Source of the DNA: Phycisphaerae bacterium
GTDB taxonomy: Bacteria; Planctomycetota; Phycisphaerae; JAJVII01
Reading direction: 5' to 3'
Length of the DNA: 64,000 nt
NCBI GenBank assembly: GCA_022072085.1
Contig: JAJVII010000039.1
Coordinates: forward strand, 1-64,000
In this document: positions 40,908 to 49,924 of the stretch, one piece after another
Position numbering within the stretch: the first letter of the stretch is position 1
Layout of the letters: each line of letters starts with the position of its first letter
Notes under the pieces: model-generated
The model's input: the letters and a program-made list of their open reading frames with translations, nothing else
Database searches by the model: none
What the model was told of the DNA's origin: nothing
Position numbers and translations under genes: made by a program

Positions 40908-41026
40908 AACGGTTGGGCGGTTCCGGCGGCTGTGCCCAGGCGACAACTTCGGTCGGCCCGAGCCTATCACGGCCGCATCCCGGGGTTTCCTTTTGTACCG
41001 GTCGCGGCGTCGTCTATCATGTCGTC

Positions 41027-42334
41027 ATGAAGCGGCGCGTCGCACAGCTTCCCCTCCACGGCGGCAAGGCCCCGCCCTGGCTGTTCAAGCGGATGACCCG
41101 GCTCGCCGGCGGCGTTACCATGGCCGTTTGCGACCGCTTCGGACCCGAGGAGATGCTCCGCCGGCTGGCCGACCCCTGGTGGTTCCAGGCGTTCGGCTGC
41201 GTGCTGGGGTTCGACTGGCACTCCAGCGGCCTGACCACCGTTACCTGCGGGGCGATGAAGGAGGCGGCCCGGCTCTTCGGCGACGAGATGGGCCTGATCG
41301 TCGCCGGCGGCAAGGGCGGGACCAGCCGGAAGACACCGCACGAAATCGCCGACGCCGCCGACCGCCATGCCATCACCGGCGGCGATCGGCTGATCTTCGC
41401 CTCGCGGATGAGCGCGAAGGTGGACTCGGCCGCCGTGCAGGACGGCTACCAGCTCTACCACCACAGCTTCTTTCTCACGCCCTCGGGCGCGTGGTGCGTC
41501 GTGCAGCAGGGCATGAGTGACGCGACCGGCTGCGCCCGGCGATACCACTGGCTGGGCGAGACGGTGGACGACTTCGTCTGCGAGCCGCACCAGGGGATCG
41601 GGGATCAGGGGGCAGGGGACGGGGATCGGAGGGCGGGGCGGCGATCGCAGGACAGCCAAGGACTTCTCTTTCTTCCCGACCCCCGGCCCCTGACCCCCGA
41701 CCCCTCTCTTCTGAACATGGTCGCCCGCGAAGCCCAGGTCAACCGCGACGCATGCGCCGCCCTGGTCCGCGGGCGGCCCGACGCGCTGATGGACGAGGTG
41801 CATCGGCTGACCGAGGGCCCGACGCTCTTCGCCCCGCGGCATCATCCGGTCCTGCCCGCCGACATCAACGCCGAGCGGCTCCGCCGGATCGTCGTCGCCG
41901 CCCACGAACGCCACCCGCAGGACTTCGTCACGCTGCTGGGGACCGAGGGCGTCGGACCGGCGGCCGTCCGCAGCCTGTCGCTGCTCGCGGAATTGATCTA
42001 CCAGGCCCCCGCGTCGCATCGCGACCCGACCCAGCCGCCGCCTGCTTCTCCTCTTCCGAGCCGCGAGCGGAAGCTCGCCGATACTTCGCTCGGCCGCCGG
42101 AAGTGGGCCGACTACTCCTATGCCCACGGCGGCAAGGACGGCCATCCGTTCCCTGTCGACCGGGCGACGTACGACCGCAACATCGCCCTCCTGATCGACG
42201 CCGTGCGCGAGGCCCGCGTCGGGCAGTCCGACAAGGCCGACGCCCTCCGCCGCCTGGCGTCGATGGAGAGATCCGCCGCCCACGACCCCGGCGACGCCGC
42301 CGGGCCGGCCCCTGACACCGGGAGCATCGCATGA
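41027..42334 (+). CDS. DUF763 family protein
   Basis: A 435-residue protein. The N-terminus RVAQLPLHGGKAPPWLFKRM, DPWWFQAFGCVLGFDWHSSG and the late SYAHGGKDGHPFPVDR are the known DUF763 signatures. Function is unknown; the family occurs in bacteria and archaea and sometimes near DNA repair or secreted enzyme genes. At about residues 189-229 a low-complexity segment (IGDQGAGDGDRRAGRRSQDS, then PDPRPLTPDPS) interrupts the family sequence. Its DNA is a GGGGATCAGGGG-type inverted repeat inserted in frame. The start lacks a clear ribosome site. Its stop overlaps the GH gene by 4 bases. Confidence 0.85.
   Translation: MKRRVAQLPLHGGKAPPWLFKRMTRLAGGVTMAVCDRFGPEEMLRRLADPWWFQAFGCVLGFDWHSSGLTTVTCGAMKEAARLFGDEMGLIVAGGKGGTSRKTPHEIADAADRHAITGGDRLIFASRMSAKVDSAAVQDGYQLYHHSFFLTPSGAWCVVQQGMSDATGCARRYHWLGETVDDFVCEPHQGIGDQGAGDGDRRAGRRSQDSQGLLFLPDPRPLTPDPSLLNMVAREAQVNRDACAALVRGRPDALMDEVHRLTEGPTLFAPRHHPVLPADINAERLRRIVVAAHERHPQDFVTLLGTEGVGPAAVRSLSLLAELIYQAPASHRDPTQPPPASPLPSRERKLADTSLGRRKWADYSYAHGGKDGHPFPVDRATYDRNIALLIDAVREARVGQSDKADALRRLASMERSAAHDPGDAAGPAPDTGSIA
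41593..41712. repeat. Repeat element inserted inside the DUF763 gene
   Basis: GGGGATCGGGGATCAGGGGG at the left of this stretch faces CCCCCGGCCCCTGACCCCCG at the right, its near reverse complement. The layout of inverted low-complexity arms is the same as in the intergenic islands. Here the insertion is a multiple of three and without stop codons, so the gene stays open. Confidence 0.6.
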
Positions 42335-44913
42335 ATCCGCATCGCGCCTTGGCCGCCGCTGTCGCGGCCGCCGTCACATTCGCCGCCGGGAGCCCCGCCA
42401 TGTCCCAACCGACGCCGTCGCAGCCGACCGCCGCGCTGGTCCCCTTCGACATGCCCTGGGATGACGCCTCGCGGTCGATCACCAACGTCAGCGACTGGCT
42501 GGACAAGCCGGCCGCCCGACTCGGCCGAATCGTCGCCCGCGACGGCCACCTCTACGCCGGCGACACGCGCGTGCGGCTGTTCGGCGTGAACCTCTGCTTC
42601 GGAGCCTGCTTCCCGACGCACGCCGACGCGGACAAGCTGGCCGCCCGGCTGGCCCGCTTCGGCATCAACGCGGTCCGTTTCCACCACATGGACATGCGGC
42701 CGGCGCCCGACGGCATCTTTCAACGCGACATGATCGCGCTGGACCCCGGCCAACTCGACCGGCTGGACTACCTGATCGCCCAACTGAAGGCCCACGGCAT
42801 CTACGCCAACGTCAACCTGCACGTCAGCCGCGTCTACCCCGGCCAGCCGACCTGGCCGGGCATGCCAAGTTTCCACAAGGGGGTGGACAACTTCGTGCCG
42901 CGGATGATCGAGCTTCAGCGGCAGTACGCCCGCGACCTGCTGACCCGCCGCAACCCCTACACGAAGCTGACCTACGCTGAGGACCCGGCCGTCGTGATCG
43001 TCGAGATCAACAATGAGAACGGCCTGATGCACGAGTGGTTCGGCGGCGGGCTGGACGACATGCCGGCCGAGTACGCCGACGAACTGACGCGGCAGTGGAA
43101 CGCCTGGCTGGCCAAACGCTACGGCGACGCAGCCGGCCTGGCCAAGGCATGGGACGTCGGCGCCCAGCCGCTGGGCGAGACCATGCTGACCAACGGCGAC
43201 TTCGCCCGCGGCGTCGAGGGCTGGACCGTCGAGCGGCACGAGGGCGCGAAGGTCACCGCGACGACCGGCCGCGACGGCCAGGGCGGCAAGCCGGCCGCCA
43301 CGCTCCGCATCGACCAGCCCGGCGGGACTTCGTGGCACGTGCAGTTCAACCAGTCGCCGCTGGCCGTTCGGCGCGACACCTCCTGCACGCTCAGCTTCTG
43401 GGCCAAGGCCGACCGCACCCGCCGCGTCAGCGTCCAGATCGGCCAGGCCCACGAGCCCTGGTCGCTGCTGGCTGCGGCGTCCGCCAACCTGACCGACAAG
43501 TGGCAGCGGTTCGAGTTCGTCCTGCCTGTCGGCGCCGCCGACGACCGGGCCCGGCTGAACTTCTCCGACCTCAGCGCCGCCGGCGCGACGTTCAGCTTCG
43601 CCGACGTGTCGCTGCGCCCCGGCGGCGTGCTGGGCCTGGCCGACGGCGAGCGGCTCGGCCGCGTGCCCCTCTTTCCGCGGTCGCAACTCGGCCGGCGCAC
43701 CGTCGCGGCCCGGCGCGACTGGATGCGGTTCCTCTGGGACGCCGAACGGGCCTACTGGCTGGGGATGTATCGCTACCTCAAGGACGACCTGCACGTGCAA
43801 TCGGTCGTCGTCGGCACGATCGTCGGATGCTCGAGCCCCAACATCATGGCCGAGCTGGACGCCGTCGACGCCCACGCCTACTGGCAGCACCCGCAGTTCC
43901 CCGGCCGACCGTGGGACGCAGCCGACTGGCTGGTTCGAAACCAGAGCATGGCCGACCACCTGCCCGGGACGATCGGCTCGCTGGCGATGCGGCGGGTCGC
44001 GGGCAAGCCGTTCCTGGTGACCGAATACAACCACGCCGCGCCCAACACCTACAGCGGCGAGGCCGCGCTGTTCCTGGCCGCCATGGCCGCCCGGCAGGAC
44101 TGGGACGGCGTCTTCCTGTTCGCCTGGTCGCACCGCCGCGACGACTGGAATGCCGAGACGTTCAAGAACTTCTTCGACATCGACCGGCACCCGACCAGGC
44201 TGGCCAACCTGATCCCCGCCGCCGCGATGTTCCTCCGCGGCGACGTGCCGGCGGCTCGCGACCTCGTGCAGGTCGTCCTGCCGCCAGACGAGGAAGTCGA
44301 ACTGATCCGCACGCGCGGCCGCGCGTGGGAACTGGTCGATGCCGCCAGCGTGGGCGTGCCGCGGGCGGCGGCGCTGACTTCCCGCGTCGCCATCCGCGTC
44401 GGCGCCGACGCGAAGCCCTTGCCCGGCGAAAGCAAGCCCGCCGCTGCGCACGACGTGCCGGACAGCTACCGGGTCGAGGGCGGACGGACCGTCGCCTACG
44501 TCGGCCGGGCCCGCGAGGGGCAGGACGTGCAGGCCGGCGACGCCCGCGTGGTCGTGGGCCCGACACGGCAGCACTGGCTGACGCTGGCGGCGACGGCCAT
44601 GACCGGCGACCGGCCCTTCGGCGTTGGCCGGACGCTGCTGGTCGCCACCGGCGATGTCGAGAACACCGCGATGGGCTGGAAGAACGCGGAGAAGTCCACG
44701 GTCGGACGCGACTGGGGCCGGGCCCCGGCGCGGGTCGAGGGGATCGCGGCGACGGTGACACTCGACGCCGCACCGGCCCGCGTCCGCGTCTGGGCGCTGG
44801 ACGGCCGGGGACAGCGGGCGCAGGAACTGAAGGTGGCCGACGCCGCAGGCCGATCGCGAATCGAGATCGGCCCGCAGTTCAGGACGCTGTGGTACGAGGT
44901 CGAGGTCGAGTGA
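42331..44913 (+). CDS. Secreted GH5/GH42-like glycoside hydrolase with inserted CBM
   Basis: An 860-residue enzyme with a signal peptide (to about residue 24). The TIM barrel starts at FGVNLCFGACFPTHADAD, with the acid/base Glu near 229 (VEINNEN) and the nucleophile Glu near 565 (VTEYNHA). Between them, about 278-435, a carbohydrate-binding beta-sandwich (TMLTNGDFARGVEGW) is inserted in the barrel. The C-terminal 220 residues form a further beta domain. The sugar is not defined; the neighbours point to rhamnose-rich or sialic-acid-like glycans. Overlaps the DUF763 gene by 4 bases. Confidence 0.75.
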   Translation: MNPHRALAAAVAAAVTFAAGSPAMSQPTPSQPTAALVPFDMPWDDASRSITNVSDWLDKPAARLGRIVARDGHLYAGDTRVRLFGVNLCFGACFPTHADADKLAARLARFGINAVRFHHMDMRPAPDGIFQRDMIALDPGQLDRLDYLIAQLKAHGIYANVNLHVSRVYPGQPTWPGMPSFHKGVDNFVPRMIELQRQYARDLLTRRNPYTKLTYAEDPAVVIVEINNENGLMHEWFGGGLDDMPAEYADELTRQWNAWLAKRYGDAAGLAKAWDVGAQPLGETMLTNGDFARGVEGWTVERHEGAKVTATTGRDGQGGKPAATLRIDQPGGTSWHVQFNQSPLAVRRDTSCTLSFWAKADRTRRVSVQIGQAHEPWSLLAAASANLTDKWQRFEFVLPVGAADDRARLNFSDLSAAGATFSFADVSLRPGGVLGLADGERLGRVPLFPRSQLGRRTVAARRDWMRFLWDAERAYWLGMYRYLKDDLHVQSVVVGTIVGCSSPNIMAELDAVDAHAYWQHPQFPGRPWDAADWLVRNQSMADHLPGTIGSLAMRRVAGKPFLVTEYNHAAPNTYSGEAALFLAAMAARQDWDGVFLFAWSHRRDDWNAETFKNFFDIDRHPTRLANLIPAAAMFLRGDVPAARDLVQVVLPPDEEVELIRTRGRAWELVDAASVGVPRAAALTSRVAIRVGADAKPLPGESKPAAAHDVPDSYRVEGGRTVAYVGRAREGQDVQAGDARVVVGPTRQHWLTLAATAMTGDRPFGVGRTLLVATGDVENTAMGWKNAEKSTVGRDWGRAPARVEGIAATVTLDAAPARVRVWALDGRGQRAQELKVADAAGRSRIEIGPQFRTLWYEVEVE

Positions 44914-44916
44914 CGA

Positions 44917-46914
44917 TCACAGGTCGCTCAGCTTGACCGCGCGGACCTCGACGTCTTCCTTGTTCGGACCGTGAATGACCCACAGCCGGCCGTCGTGGAC
45001 GATTGCGTGCGGATAGCTGAAGCCCCGCGCCTTGTGCATGCCGACGATCCGCCAGATGGCATTCTCGTCGGCCACCAGCTTGTGCAGCCGGTCGAACGTG
45101 CGTCCGTCGCTGGAGACGCCGACGGTGAGAATCCGCCGCCGCAGCGGGCCGGCGGTCGCGTTGCTGACGATCGCCACGCGGCCGTCCCCCAGGGGCAGGA
45201 CGTGGAACTTGCTCTGGGCGTCCACCAGGTCGGTCGGGGCCGCCTCGCTCCAGGTTGCCCCGCCGTCGCGGCTGGTGGCCAGCCACAGCCGCCGCGAGCC
45301 GGCGTCGTCGCGCATCAGCACGTTGATGTCGCCGTCCGGCGTCATCCACCACGAGGGCTCGGTGAGCCTGACGCCGCTCTGGGCCCGGCGGCTGAGCACG
45401 TGCACGTCCCACTGGTCGACGGCCTGTTGGCCGCCGATGGCCAGGATCGGATCGTGCGGCCCGTTCACGCCGGCCATCGCGTATCGCCCGTCGCCCAGCG
45501 GCCGCGGGGCCTCGTTGACGTAGAAGTCGTCCAGAACCAGGCCCAGCGGCTTCCAGGTCTTGCCGGTCCATTCGAAACCGTCGGTCGCCAGGTCGGCCCA
45601 GCAAAGCCCCGGGCGCGCCTCGCCGTCGACGTACCGCGCCCGCGTGCAGCGCGTCGCCAGCGTCAGCAGCTTGCCGTTGCGGAGCCACAGCCCGCCGGCT
45701 GTCCAGCGCAGGTAGCCTGCTGGACGGGGGGTCACGTCGGCGGGCGACGACCAGGTCAGCCCGTCGGGCGAGGTGGCGTAGCGGCTGGTCTGCCCGGGGC
45801 TGTCCTCGTTGATGTGGGCCGCGGAGAAGACCGCCCAGAACTTCCCGTCGAAATGGGCGATCGACTGGTGGTGGTGATAGTTGAACTCGTCGCCCGCCTT
45901 GACGTGGACGACGCTGCCGACCTGCGAGGGCAGGGGGGCGGTCGCCTCGGCCTGCTCCGCGAGCCCGGCCTTGAGAAGGTGGGCGACCTTGCGGTCGCCG
46001 ATCCCCGCGACCGGGACGTGTCGGCCCGCTTCGCCGCCGGCCAGGCGTCCGCCGGTGGACAGTTCCCGCTTCAGTGTAAGCAGGTCGGCCTCGTCGTAGA
46101 GGTCGTGGGGCCGCAGCGGCTGGCCGGCGGGCACGCCCATCGACTGCAACGCCTGCTTCATCAAGGTGATGGCCGTGCTGCCGGAGGCCAGGATCTTCGC
46201 GACGCGGCGGACGTAGTCGGCCTTGGCCTTGTCTCCGCCGGCGGCCTCGGCGCACTCTCGCGGCAGCAGGTTGACCGTGCCGTCGATGCAGCCGTCGGCG
46301 CCGGCGGCTGCGAAGTCGGCCCGCTGCCAGGCCGAGCCCGAGTAGATCTTGAACCCGGCCGGGGCCGAAGCGCGGATGGCCCGGACGCGGTCGATGCTCT
46401 GCTCGCTGTCCTTGACGCCGACGACCTTGGCGGCGAGCGTGTGGGCAAGCCGGCCGATGTGCTCCGGGGCCCACGCCTGATGCGTGCGGACCGGGTTGTG
46501 ATAGAACAGCAGCGGCAGGCGGGCCGCGTCGGCGATGGCCGTGTAGTAGCGGTCGAGCTGAGCGGGCGTGGCGTTGAGGAACCAGGGCTCCAGCACGAAG
46601 GCTGCATCGCATCCGGCGTCGGCGGCGATGTGCGTGAAGCGGATCGCCTGCCGTGTGCTCGTCCAGCCGGTCCCGGCGGCGACGGTGACGCGTCCGCGGG
46701 CAACCTCGACTGCGGCGCGGTAGAGGGCCGCCCGCTCGGATTCGTCGAGCTGCCAGGCCTCGCCGTTGCTGCCGGTGACCAGCAGGCCGCTCACCCCGCC
46801 GCAGATGATGTAGTCAGCCAGCGCCCGGAACGCGCCCAGGTCGAGCGACTCGTCCGCATTGAAGGTCGTGAAGATCGGGGCCCAACAGCCGCCGCGGATC
46901 GCAGGGGTCGTCAT
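44917..46914 (-). CDS. DapA/NanA-type aldolase fused to a sialidase-like propeller
   Basis: A 665-residue two-domain protein. Residues 1-290 form a class I aldolase of the dihydrodipicolinate synthase/N-acetylneuraminate lyase family: GLLVTGSNGEAWQLDESE, Tyr-138 in LLFYHNPVRT, and the Schiff-base Lys-168 in VVGVKDSEQSI. Residues about 310-665 are a sialidase-like propeller with Asp-box motifs SPDGLTW, SRDGGATW and SSDGRTF. There is no signal peptide. A sialidase releases sialic acid and NanA cleaves it, so the fusion would channel the product. The family also acts on other oxo acids, and the sialidase Arg triad is not confirmed. SD GAAAGGA supports the start. Confidence 0.75.
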   Translation of the reverse strand: MTTPAIRGGCWAPIFTTFNADESLDLGAFRALADYIICGGVSGLLVTGSNGEAWQLDESERAALYRAAVEVARGRVTVAAGTGWTSTRQAIRFTHIAADAGCDAAFVLEPWFLNATPAQLDRYYTAIADAARLPLLFYHNPVRTHQAWAPEHIGRLAHTLAAKVVGVKDSEQSIDRVRAIRASAPAGFKIYSGSAWQRADFAAAGADGCIDGTVNLLPRECAEAAGGDKAKADYVRRVAKILASGSTAITLMKQALQSMGVPAGQPLRPHDLYDEADLLTLKRELSTGGRLAGGEAGRHVPVAGIGDRKVAHLLKAGLAEQAEATAPLPSQVGSVVHVKAGDEFNYHHHQSIAHFDGKFWAVFSAAHINEDSPGQTSRYATSPDGLTWSSPADVTPRPAGYLRWTAGGLWLRNGKLLTLATRCTRARYVDGEARPGLCWADLATDGFEWTGKTWKPLGLVLDDFYVNEAPRPLGDGRYAMAGVNGPHDPILAIGGQQAVDQWDVHVLSRRAQSGVRLTEPSWWMTPDGDINVLMRDDAGSRRLWLATSRDGGATWSEAAPTDLVDAQSKFHVLPLGDGRVAIVSNATAGPLRRRILTVGVSSDGRTFDRLHKLVADENAIWRIVGMHKARGFSYPHAIVHDGRLWVIHGPNKEDVEVRAVKLSDL

Positions 46915-47011
46915 TGAAGCGTCCTTTCATCGCCGGCCCGGGGCTGGCGAAAAGGTATTCATCGCGATAATCTGGCCGCCTGTCAAGAGACGCCTTCAAC
47001 AGGAGCCGCCG

Positions 47012-49924
47012 ATGTCCGCGACGCTGTTTCACGCCGACGCCCGCTGGATCTGGAGCCGGCATGCCGATCGACACACCAACGACTTCTTCTGCTTCCGCCG
47101 GACGCTCAACGTCCGCGGCCCGGTCCGGGACGCGACGATCCGCATCACCGCTGACTCGCGATACGAACTGCACGTCAACGGCGAGTGGATCGGCCACGGG
47201 CCGCCCAAGTCGTACCTCTCGCCGTGGCCGGTGGATGAATACGACCTCCGCGGGCGGCTGGTCGAGGGCGACAACGTCGTCGCGGTGCTCGTGCAGCACA
47301 TGGGGCAGGACAAGTATCACACCTACATCCCGGCCGACGCGGGCCTGCTCGTGCAGGCCGAGTGGCGCGACGCGGGCGGGCGGCGGCGGGTCGTCAGCGA
47401 CCGCCGCTGGCGGTGCCGCCCGCACGACGGGTTCCTCTGGCCGGTGCCGCGGATCAGCATCCAGCGCGAGTGGACCGAGCAGTTCGACGCCCGGCGGGCG
47501 CCGGGGGAGGCGTGGCGCGATCGCGGCTGGGACGACTCCGACTGGCCTGCGGCCGTCGAGGTCCGCCGCGTCGGCACGCCGCCGCACGGGGCGCTGGAGC
47601 CGCGTGACATCCCGATGCTCACCCGCGAGCCGGTCGAGCCGGCGGCAGTCCTGGCGGCTGAGCCGGTGCGGGCCGCGGACCTGACGCTGGCGTGGGACTG
47701 CCGGCGGCTGGTCTCGGGCGAGCGGCGGATGGCCGACGCCCTGCCGGGGCGTCTGGTCGTCGCGACCTTCATCCACAGCCCGCGGGCCCAGGCGGTGCAG
47801 TTGCACCGCACGCTGATCGGATACTACGAGGCGCCGTGGAAACTGAACGGCCGCGAACTGCGGTTCGACGACCTCTCGCTCCAGTCCACCGACAGTGGCG
47901 TTGCCCGCGCCCGGCTGCGGCGCGGCTGGAACGTGCTGATGACCAACACCTCCGGCTGGACGGTCAACCGCAACGACGCGCTGAACCTCTGGTTCAAGCA
48001 CCCGGTCGCGGCGCACTGGAAGCCGGCGCCCGGCGTCGCCGGCGGCCCGCTGTTGCGGCTGTGGTCCGACGACGCCGACGGCCCGGCGGCCAGGCGGATC
48101 GATGCGATCTGGAAATCCGGGCGGCTGACGGAGGCGGACCTGCACGCCGACTTCGCCGCCCCGCTGCCGCGCGACGCCTGGTCGGCGGCCAACGTCGCGG
48201 CCGTCTGCCAGTCCGAGCGCGTCGTGCCGGGCGTCGTGGTCGTCGCGGAGAACCTGCCCGCGCTGATCCGCGACAACGCCGACTGGGCGACGATCCAGCC
48301 GCCGCGCGGCGGCGCGGACGTCCGGCTGCTGCTGGACTTCGGCCGCGAGACGGTCGGTTATCACGAGTTCGAGCTGGACGCGCCGGCCGGCACGGTCGTG
48401 GACCTGCACAGCTTCGAGTTCATCCAGCCGGACGGCCGGCGGAACCTCAGCGACGGCATGAGCGCGACGGCACGCTACGTATGCCGCGAGGGGGTGCAGC
48501 GCTATCGGACCTTTACGCGCCACGGGTTCCGCTACACCTGGGTGACGCTGCGCGGCCTGCGGCGGGCGGCCGGCGTGCGCATGGTGCGGGCGATCCGCAG
48601 CACCTACCCGGCGACGCGGCGCGGGGCGTTCGCCTGCTCCGACCCGACGCTCGACCGCATCTGGGACGTCGGCGTGCGCAGCGTGCGGACCTGCTCGGAA
48701 GACACCTACACCGACTGCCCGACCTGGGAGCAGACGCACTGGGTCGGCGACGGGCGGAACGAGGCCCTGGTCGACCTGGTCGTCAGCGGCGATCCGCGGC
48801 TGAGCGCCCACTCCTGGATGCAGGCGGCCCGCAGCCTGGATCGCTCGCCGCTGGTCGAGAGCCACACGCCGCCGACGAAGGCCAACATCCTGCCCGCCTG
48901 GTCGTTCCTCTGGATGCGCTGGGCCCAGGAGCACTACCAGATGACCGGCGACGCGACGCTGGCCCGTCGGATGCTGGGCTGGCTGGACCGGAACGTCGCG
49001 GGCATCCGGCGGCACGTCAACCGCGACGGGCTGTTCGAGATCGAGGCCTGGAACATGTTCGACTGGGCCCCGATGGACACGCCGCGGCGGGGCGTGGTGA
49101 CGCACCAGAACTGTCTGGCAGTGCTGGGCCTGCGGCAGGCGGCGCGGCTGGCCCGCGACCTGGGACGCCCGAAACTCGCGCGGGGGTGGGACGAACTGGG
49201 CGACGCCCTGGCGGCGGCGATCAACCGGCGGCTCTGGTCGACGCAGCGGCGGGCCTACCTCGACTGCATTCACGAGGACGGCGCGCCCAGCACAGTGTTC
49301 AGCCAGCAGACGCAGACGGCGGCGTTCATCTCCGGCGTGGCGGCCGGCGTGCGGGCGCGGCGCTGCCGCGAGATCATCGAGCGGGCCCCAGCCGGCTTCG
49401 TGCGGGCCGGCAGCCCGTTCTTCATGTTCTTCGTGCTGGAGGTGCTGGCGGCGGAGGAACGCTTCGGCGAAATGCTGGACACCATCCGCGACTACTGGGG
49501 CCCCCAGATCGAGGCCGGCGCGACGACCATCTGGGAGATGTATCACCCCGACCAGCCGCGGATGACCCGCAGCCACTGCCACGGCTGGTCCGCGGCCCCG
49601 ACGTTCTTCCTGTCGCATTACGTCCTGGGGGTGCGGCCGGCGGAGCCGGGTTATGGGACGATCCGCATCGCCCCGAGGACCGGCGGGCTGCGTTGGGCCC
49701 GCGGCCGCGTGGCCACCCCGCACGGCGACGTGGAGGTGTCGTGGGAACGGCGGGGCCGGCGACTGGAACTGCGGGCGACCTCGCCGGGTCCGGGGATGCG
49801 GATCGAACTGGCGACGGCCGGCCGGGTTGTGGCCAAGTCCAACGCCCGCGTGATGCGGTCGCCCCGCGGCGGCGTGGTCCTTTCGTCGCCGGGCGGGGCG
49901 GTCCGGGTGGTGGTGGAGGGGTAG
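47012..49924 (+). CDS. GH78-like alpha-L-rhamnosidase
   Basis: A 970-residue enzyme. An N-terminal beta-sandwich (about 1-150; FRRTLNVRGPVRDATIRITA, YELHVNGEWIGHGP) and a second sandwich are followed by an alpha/alpha barrel (about 540-870) with CPTWEQTHWVGDGRNE and TIWEMYHPDQPRMTRSHCHG, where the catalytic Glu residues lie in GH78. A C-terminal beta domain ends the protein. No signal peptide is seen, so substrate would be handled inside the cell or after non-classical export. AGGAG precedes the ATG. Transcribed divergently from the aldolase-sialidase gene, 97 bases away. Confidence 0.8.
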   Translation: MSATLFHADARWIWSRHADRHTNDFFCFRRTLNVRGPVRDATIRITADSRYELHVNGEWIGHGPPKSYLSPWPVDEYDLRGRLVEGDNVVAVLVQHMGQDKYHTYIPADAGLLVQAEWRDAGGRRRVVSDRRWRCRPHDGFLWPVPRISIQREWTEQFDARRAPGEAWRDRGWDDSDWPAAVEVRRVGTPPHGALEPRDIPMLTREPVEPAAVLAAEPVRAADLTLAWDCRRLVSGERRMADALPGRLVVATFIHSPRAQAVQLHRTLIGYYEAPWKLNGRELRFDDLSLQSTDSGVARARLRRGWNVLMTNTSGWTVNRNDALNLWFKHPVAAHWKPAPGVAGGPLLRLWSDDADGPAARRIDAIWKSGRLTEADLHADFAAPLPRDAWSAANVAAVCQSERVVPGVVVVAENLPALIRDNADWATIQPPRGGADVRLLLDFGRETVGYHEFELDAPAGTVVDLHSFEFIQPDGRRNLSDGMSATARYVCREGVQRYRTFTRHGFRYTWVTLRGLRRAAGVRMVRAIRSTYPATRRGAFACSDPTLDRIWDVGVRSVRTCSEDTYTDCPTWEQTHWVGDGRNEALVDLVVSGDPRLSAHSWMQAARSLDRSPLVESHTPPTKANILPAWSFLWMRWAQEHYQMTGDATLARRMLGWLDRNVAGIRRHVNRDGLFEIEAWNMFDWAPMDTPRRGVVTHQNCLAVLGLRQAARLARDLGRPKLARGWDELGDALAAAINRRLWSTQRRAYLDCIHEDGAPSTVFSQQTQTAAFISGVAAGVRARRCREIIERAPAGFVRAGSPFFMFFVLEVLAAEERFGEMLDTIRDYWGPQIEAGATTIWEMYHPDQPRMTRSHCHGWSAAPTFFLSHYVLGVRPAEPGYGTIRIAPRTGGLRWARGRVATPHGDVEVSWERRGRRLELRATSPGPGMRIELATAGRVVAKSNARVMRSPRGGVVLSSPGGAVRVVVEG

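Follow-up and report, generated by a model that had tools for sequence, protein, structure and literature searches.

A Planctomycetota gene fusing a DHDPS-type aldolase to a sialidase-fold propeller, with a predicted role in the release and cleavage of 3-deoxy-2-ulosonic acids

The 64,000-nucleotide stretch of a Phycisphaerae bacterium studied here (contig JAJVII010000039.1, positions 1 to 64,000; hereafter, the window) carries a gene in which an aldolase and a glycosidase-like domain follow each other in a single open reading frame. The gene raises the question whether the two halves act in succession on the same sugar and, if so, on which one. A sequence-only reading of the locus had described the protein as a NanA/DapA-type aldolase joined to a sialidase-like propeller, without a signal peptide, and acting on a sialic-acid-like sugar. 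Here, we examine the reality of the fusion, the residues retained in each half, and the gene contexts in which the fusion and its unfused counterparts are found.

A two-domain protein recurrent in Planctomycetota

The gene and its domains are arranged as follows.

44917..46914, minus strand: fusion gene with an ATG start, encoding a class I aldolase of the DHDPS type and a sialidase-fold hydrolase in 665 aa
46075..46890, minus strand: aldolase domain, residues 9-280, TIM barrel (PF00701, E 2.6e-49; AlphaFold; Foldseek)
45994..46050, minus strand: flexible linker, residues 289-307 (pLDDT < 50)
44920..45924, minus strand: sialidase-fold propeller, residues 331-665, BT1020/GH143-related (PF13088, PF24067, 5mqr profile match, model)

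Pfam searches recognized both halves, with the DHDPS family matching 272 residues of the first and BNR_2 matching residues 513-643 of the second (E 1.1e-23); the Beta-prop_BT_1020 family, at residues 340-396, scored 25.0 bits against a cut-off of 27, i.e., at or just under the cut-off. The AlphaFold model likewise consists of two domains separated by the low-confidence linker, and Foldseek comparisons identified a DHDPS/NAL-like barrel (TM, by target, 0.80-0.90) and a sialidase-like propeller (TM up to 0.75 against sialidases). The three Asp-boxes attributed to the C-terminal half are indeed present (SPDGLTW at 382, SRDGGATW at 548, SSDGRTF at 601), compared with a mean of 0.0046 in 20,000 shuffled copies of the domain. 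Given that an in-frame stop lies 4 codons upstream of the ATG, no signal peptide has been overlooked on the 5′ side, and the protein is probably cytosolic, as previously suggested. High GC content accounts for a long open reading frame on the other strand (44971-46917), for which no full-length homologues were found, in contrast to the minus-strand protein.

Joined homologues with 41-51% identity were detected in seven other Planctomycetota genomes (G001, of the same family, G018, G057, G077, G325, G220 and G111), for a total of eight fusion genomes including that of the window. These relatives were detected with a query built from an alignment, whereas a single-sequence scan of genome contigs returned nothing. 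One genome (G077) encodes two copies with one gene between them; the G220 copy aligns from query residue 86 onwards, and the G111 gene is interrupted by contig ends, so that each of two contigs carries one half. The fusion is rare in our sample of 392 genomes of the phylum, all named records of its homologues are Planctomycetota MAGs, and a pattern scan of 84,980 species genomes, which requires exact short motifs, found none in other phyla. The recurrence of the joined form excludes a frameshift or misassembly that would have merged two genes. Phylogenetically, the fusion aldolases cluster in one clade with 100/100 support, which suggests a single origin of the fusion.

Two putative active sites

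The fusion barrel is a member of the DHDPS/NAL class I aldolase superfamily. Three of its residues are of particular relevance.

46411..46413, minus strand: Lys168, Schiff-base lysine (VVGVKDS; alignment with E. coli DapA, NanA, YagE and YjhH)
46501..46503, minus strand: Tyr138, catalytic tyrosine (FYHNP; alignments of the fusions and E. coli aldolases)
46486..46488, minus strand: Arg143 (YHNPVRTH), matching in position the Arg of the DapA-type PSRTG motif (alignment with E. coli aldolases)

Lys168 and Tyr138 thus occupy the places assigned to them from the sequence alone and, along with the GSNGE loop and the barrel itself, are shared with DapA, NanA, YagE and YjhH. The fusion aldolases differ from these enzymes in forming a clade of their own, in carrying Trp at the first Tyr of the TPYY stretch, and in being joined to a hydrolase. 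In DapA, the Arg of PSRTG binds the distal carboxylate; E. coli NanA, YagE and YjhH lack an Arg at this position in our alignment. None of the more specific NCBIfam models that were compared reached its cut-off, neither the dapA equivalog (143.6 bits, cut-off 206) nor the archaeal KDG aldolase model (59.6 bits, cut-off 390), and the genome of the window encodes a separate DapA-clade gene. Lys168 is conserved in 6 of the 8 fusion copies readable at this position, and the window copy and five others retain Lys168, Tyr138 and Arg143 together. In the second copy of G077 and in G220, Lys168 is replaced by Leu or Tyr and Tyr138 is lost, and the invariant propeller residues are retained, so that the aldolase half appears to be dispensable in some fusions. 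Paralogues of this kind, with the aldolase Lys and Tyr lost and the propeller intact, lie at L044 11839-13803 and L048 7434-9185.

In the propeller, five positions make up a candidate catalytic constellation.

45802..45804, minus strand: Asp371 (NEDSPGQ), candidate acid/base (role by GH33 analogy; invariant among the aligned C-domains)
45358..45360, minus strand: Glu519 (LTEPSWW), Glu of the Tyr/Glu pair (aligns with LTEC of NanI, 2bf6; invariant)
45310..45312, minus strand: Arg535 (LMRDD), second Arg of the triad (aligns with FMRN of 2bf6; invariant)
45136..45138, minus strand: Arg593 (RRRIL), third Arg of the triad (invariant; aligns with BT1020-type FRWPLA)
45013..45015, minus strand: Tyr634 (GFSYPHA), putative nucleophile (invariant; aligns with BT1020-type QYPRG)

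Modelled alone, the propeller is predicted with high confidence (pLDDT 90.7, pTM 0.91). In an alignment of the C-domains of the fusions with two distant relatives, from Mucilaginibacter and Asticcacaulis, residues E370, D371, E519, R535, D565, K569, R593, K628, Y634, K652 and E653 are invariant throughout. The Tyr/Glu pair of sialidases is therefore represented by Y634 and E519, the Tyr being assigned by alignment and spacing rather than by structure; the spacings between E519, R535, R593 and Y634 match those of NanI. By contrast, the first Arg of the triad (RIP) aligns with a His, either H348 or H349. GH33 exo-sialidases, such as NanI, pneumococcal NanA and the Micromonospora sialidase, share with the fusion the propeller fold, the Asp-boxes, and the active-site Glu and Arg, but differ from it in that first Arg, and their sequence match is weak (E about 1e-5). 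Indeed, the profile of ten C-domains retrieved PDB entry 5mqr (titled Sialidase BT_1020) with an E value of 1.7e-26 and GH33 enzymes with 1.3e-5 or worse; in the Foldseek list, 5mqr showed the highest sequence identity to the propeller model (20%, TM 0.66).

Thus, the nearest solved sequence relative of the propeller is BT1020 of Bacteroides thetaiotaomicron, presumably the enzyme on which family GH143 was founded; we draw this link from the title of the PDB entry and from the domain composition, the founding paper giving no locus number. The GH143 enzyme of B. thetaiotaomicron releases Dha from plant rhamnogalacturonan-II (RG-II) and keeps the Tyr/Glu pair (PMC6811678). It is described as five-bladed and is joined to an arabinofuranosidase rather than to an aldolase (PMC6811678). 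The BT1020 family and the fusion propeller share the YNH stretch, R593, K628, Y634 and the NKED motif. A homologue of BT1020 from a plasmid record of Bacteroides finegoldii (L065) has R593, Y634, K628 and NKED, but no counterparts of E519 and R535, both present in the fusion propeller, in a region where the alignment is uncertain. On sequence comparison, the propeller lies between GH33 and GH143 and is a standard member of neither.

From the domains, their fusion and the retained residues, we infer two reactions and their coupling: in our assessment, the protein is probably a cytosolic bifunctional glycosidase-aldolase that releases and then cleaves a 3-deoxy-2-ulosonic acid. The propeller would act as a retaining exo-glycosidase on a terminal 3-deoxy-2-ulosonic acid of imported oligosaccharides, with Tyr634, activated by Glu519, attacking C2, and with the carboxylate held by Arg535 and Arg593, His348 or His349 replacing the first Arg; by analogy with GH33, Asp371 would be the likely acid/base. 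The released sugar acid would open and enter the N-terminal barrel, where formation of a Schiff base on Lys168 would lead to cleavage into pyruvate and an aldehyde. If so, a single cytosolic protein couples the hydrolytic release of a sialic-acid-like sugar to its catabolism. As the sequence-only reading had surmised, we found no previous description of such an architecture in a literature search that covered mainly openly accessible papers.

Three other readings of the protein have to be weighed. DHDPS proteins are commonly tetramers, and the barrel might have become, or be becoming, an oligomerization scaffold for a working propeller rather than a pathway aldolase. The copies in which the aldolase Lys and Tyr are lost and the propeller residues kept speak for this reading, but it appears unlikely, given that the window copy is among the six with the complete set of aldolase residues and given the unfused aldolase-hydrolase gene pairs of Proteobacteria described below.

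Still less probable, in our estimate, is the combination of a true sialidase with a true N-acetylneuraminate lyase, whereby Neu5Ac or Kdn would be liberated and then split into pyruvate and either ManNAc or mannose. A sialidase fold that keeps the Tyr/Glu pair and all but one Arg of the triad is compatible with it, as is the superfamily of the barrel, and a grouping of the fusion aldolase with NanA, represented in the tree by the single E. coli sequence, is not rejected (AU p 0.29). On the other side, the fusion aldolase scores far below the cut-offs of the NanA equivalog models (94.7 bits versus 281, and 74.0 versus 382), and the best tree places the fusion clade beside DapA, albeit with support that is not strong (83/61). 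Furthermore, no gene in the eight fusion genomes scores above the NanE cut-off, which argues against Neu5Ac. Hence, the earlier label of a NanA-type aldolase is not supported, and the clustering with non-sialic enzymes is that of the best tree only; nor is the propeller supported as a sialidase in the strict sense, its first triad Arg being replaced by His and its nearest solved relative being a Dha hydrolase, even if the Tyr/Glu pair and the second and third Arg are in place. Finally, the proposition that the propeller is a non-catalytic, carbohydrate-binding or regulatory domain and the aldolase the only enzyme, to which the missing first Arg could be taken to point, is highly improbable because the catalytic constellation is invariant even in the copies with a dead aldolase.

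Cellular location, gene neighbourhood and candidate substrates

Returning to the bifunctional glycosidase-aldolase, its location bears on the substrate. A simple hydrophobicity scan found no signal-peptide-like stretch in any fusion copy with a readable N-terminus, as opposed to 12 of the 15 stand-alone relatives from the phylum, so that the fusion probably acts on imported material. In the window, the gene is flanked by two genes for putative carbohydrate-active proteins.

47012..49924, plus strand: GH78-type alpha-L-rhamnosidase, divergent neighbour (PF17389, E 3.2e-38)
42331..44913, plus strand: secreted GH5/GH42-like protein with CBM_4_9, convergent neighbour (Pfam)

The starts of the fusion gene and the rhamnosidase gene are 97 bp apart, and no sigma-70-like promoter was found between them. 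GH78 genes are common, which weakens this neighbour as a clue. In RG-II, Kdo and Dha are linked to the backbone within side chains C and D, the ends of which are rhamnose and arabinofuranose (PMC12282258). The rhamnosidase is therefore compatible with Kdo as the substrate. A DUF763 gene (E 6e-117) also lies among the glycan-active genes, at 40913-42334 of the window.

In five other genomes, a gene for a secreted Kelch-repeat protein is linked to the fusion, being beside or near it in G077, G057, G018 and G111 and about 5 kb off in G325 (L044 7516-8943, L045 7494-8885, L046 7360-8751, L050 7113-8375 and L047 16750-18024). Identification of this partner as NanM was rejected, the only NanM match being weak and found in one protein (E 0.0043); a PDB search with it retrieved designed and plant Kelch proteins only, with weak scores. 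An RraA-like aldolase family gene adjoins the fusion in G077 and G325 (L044 11077-11835 and L047 11596-12438; 68% identity between the two genomes). In another Planctomycetota genome, a C-domain of the stand-alone type shares one open frame with a sulfatase-like protein (L027 1-2505).

Kdo, Dha or a related acid, carried on imported oligosaccharides, is the most likely substrate, rather than Neu5Ac. Among the eight fusion genomes, the DUF1537 kinase was found in none, PdxA is represented by at most one gene per genome, and C4 sugar-acid genes were not found as a set; no apiosidase was found in the genome of the window, which thus gives no sign of RG-II breakdown. With the C4 genes, NanE and apiosidase missing, the Dha reading rests on relatives of the fusion rather than on the window's genome, and Neu5Ac is disfavoured.

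Unfused gene pairs in Proteobacteria

A propeller search of plasmid records led to loci in which the same two predicted activities are encoded side by side by separate genes, clustered with transporters. In Martelella, the order is a DHDPS-family gene, an exo-alpha-sialidase gene and a tricarboxylate transporter; the first two adjoin also in Klebsiella, Aminobacter, Rhizobium binae, Rhizobium NXC14 and Sinorhizobium americanum (the last identified by tblastn), and are one gene apart in Pantoea. The pair occurs within 5 kb at 7 of 14 loci in this non-random sample. Clusters of this type span L067 4661-6771, L069 4047-6044, L071 2958-7233, L072 3964-8551, L076 3964-8560 and L079 1-6062. The hydrolases belong to a different BNR_2 subfamily and are only distant relatives of the fusion propeller, and the pairs often lie near iron alcohol dehydrogenase and PdxA-type genes, which the fusion loci lack. 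Nevertheless, the adjacent or, in Pantoea, nearly adjacent separate genes are an independent sign that the two activities could belong to one pathway.

Several pair loci carry both the iron alcohol dehydrogenase and the PdxA-type gene, the latter annotated in Pantoea as D-threonate 4-phosphate dehydrogenase. In Agrobacterium and Shinella, an exo-alpha-sialidase gene is accompanied by PdxA-type, iron alcohol dehydrogenase, four-carbon acid sugar kinase and ABC transporter genes, with no DHDPS gene in these stretches (L080 4902-9976 and L081 4902-10015). Since Dha is a C7 acid, its cleavage would yield pyruvate and a C4 acid, with which the PdxA-type and C4-acid genes fit; cleavage of Kdo or Neu5Ac would not yield a C4 acid. 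The two genes that were scored, Rhizobium PdxA and the Agrobacterium kinase, do not reach the curated cut-offs set for the D-threonate models; thus, the fit of the clusters to a Dha pathway ending in pyruvate and D-threonate is a lead. We found no description of Dha breakdown beyond its release from the polymer in our literature search, and the linked gene pairs offer a testable pathway for this plant wall sugar. Arg143 was considered as a mark of a Dha aldolase, a role weakened by the lack of this residue in the cluster-encoded aldolases of Aminobacter and Rhizobium.

It is conceivable, and we put it forward tentatively, that the fusion both releases and cleaves, within a single protein, an acidic sugar from the walls of plants or algae (Dha or Kdo) and represents part of a wider, unnamed pathway, the unfused form of which, on plasmids of plant-associated Proteobacteria, would end in pyruvate and a C4 sugar acid (D-threonate). 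More generally, sialic acid may not be the substrate of many soil and plant bacterial proteins annotated as exo-alpha-sialidases. An Asticcacaulis plasmid from duckweed carries two sialidase-family genes near the pectin genes kduI and GH88 (L066 5318-10020); the smaller of the two sialidase-family genes has matches to BNR_2 as well as to the BT_1020 propeller family.
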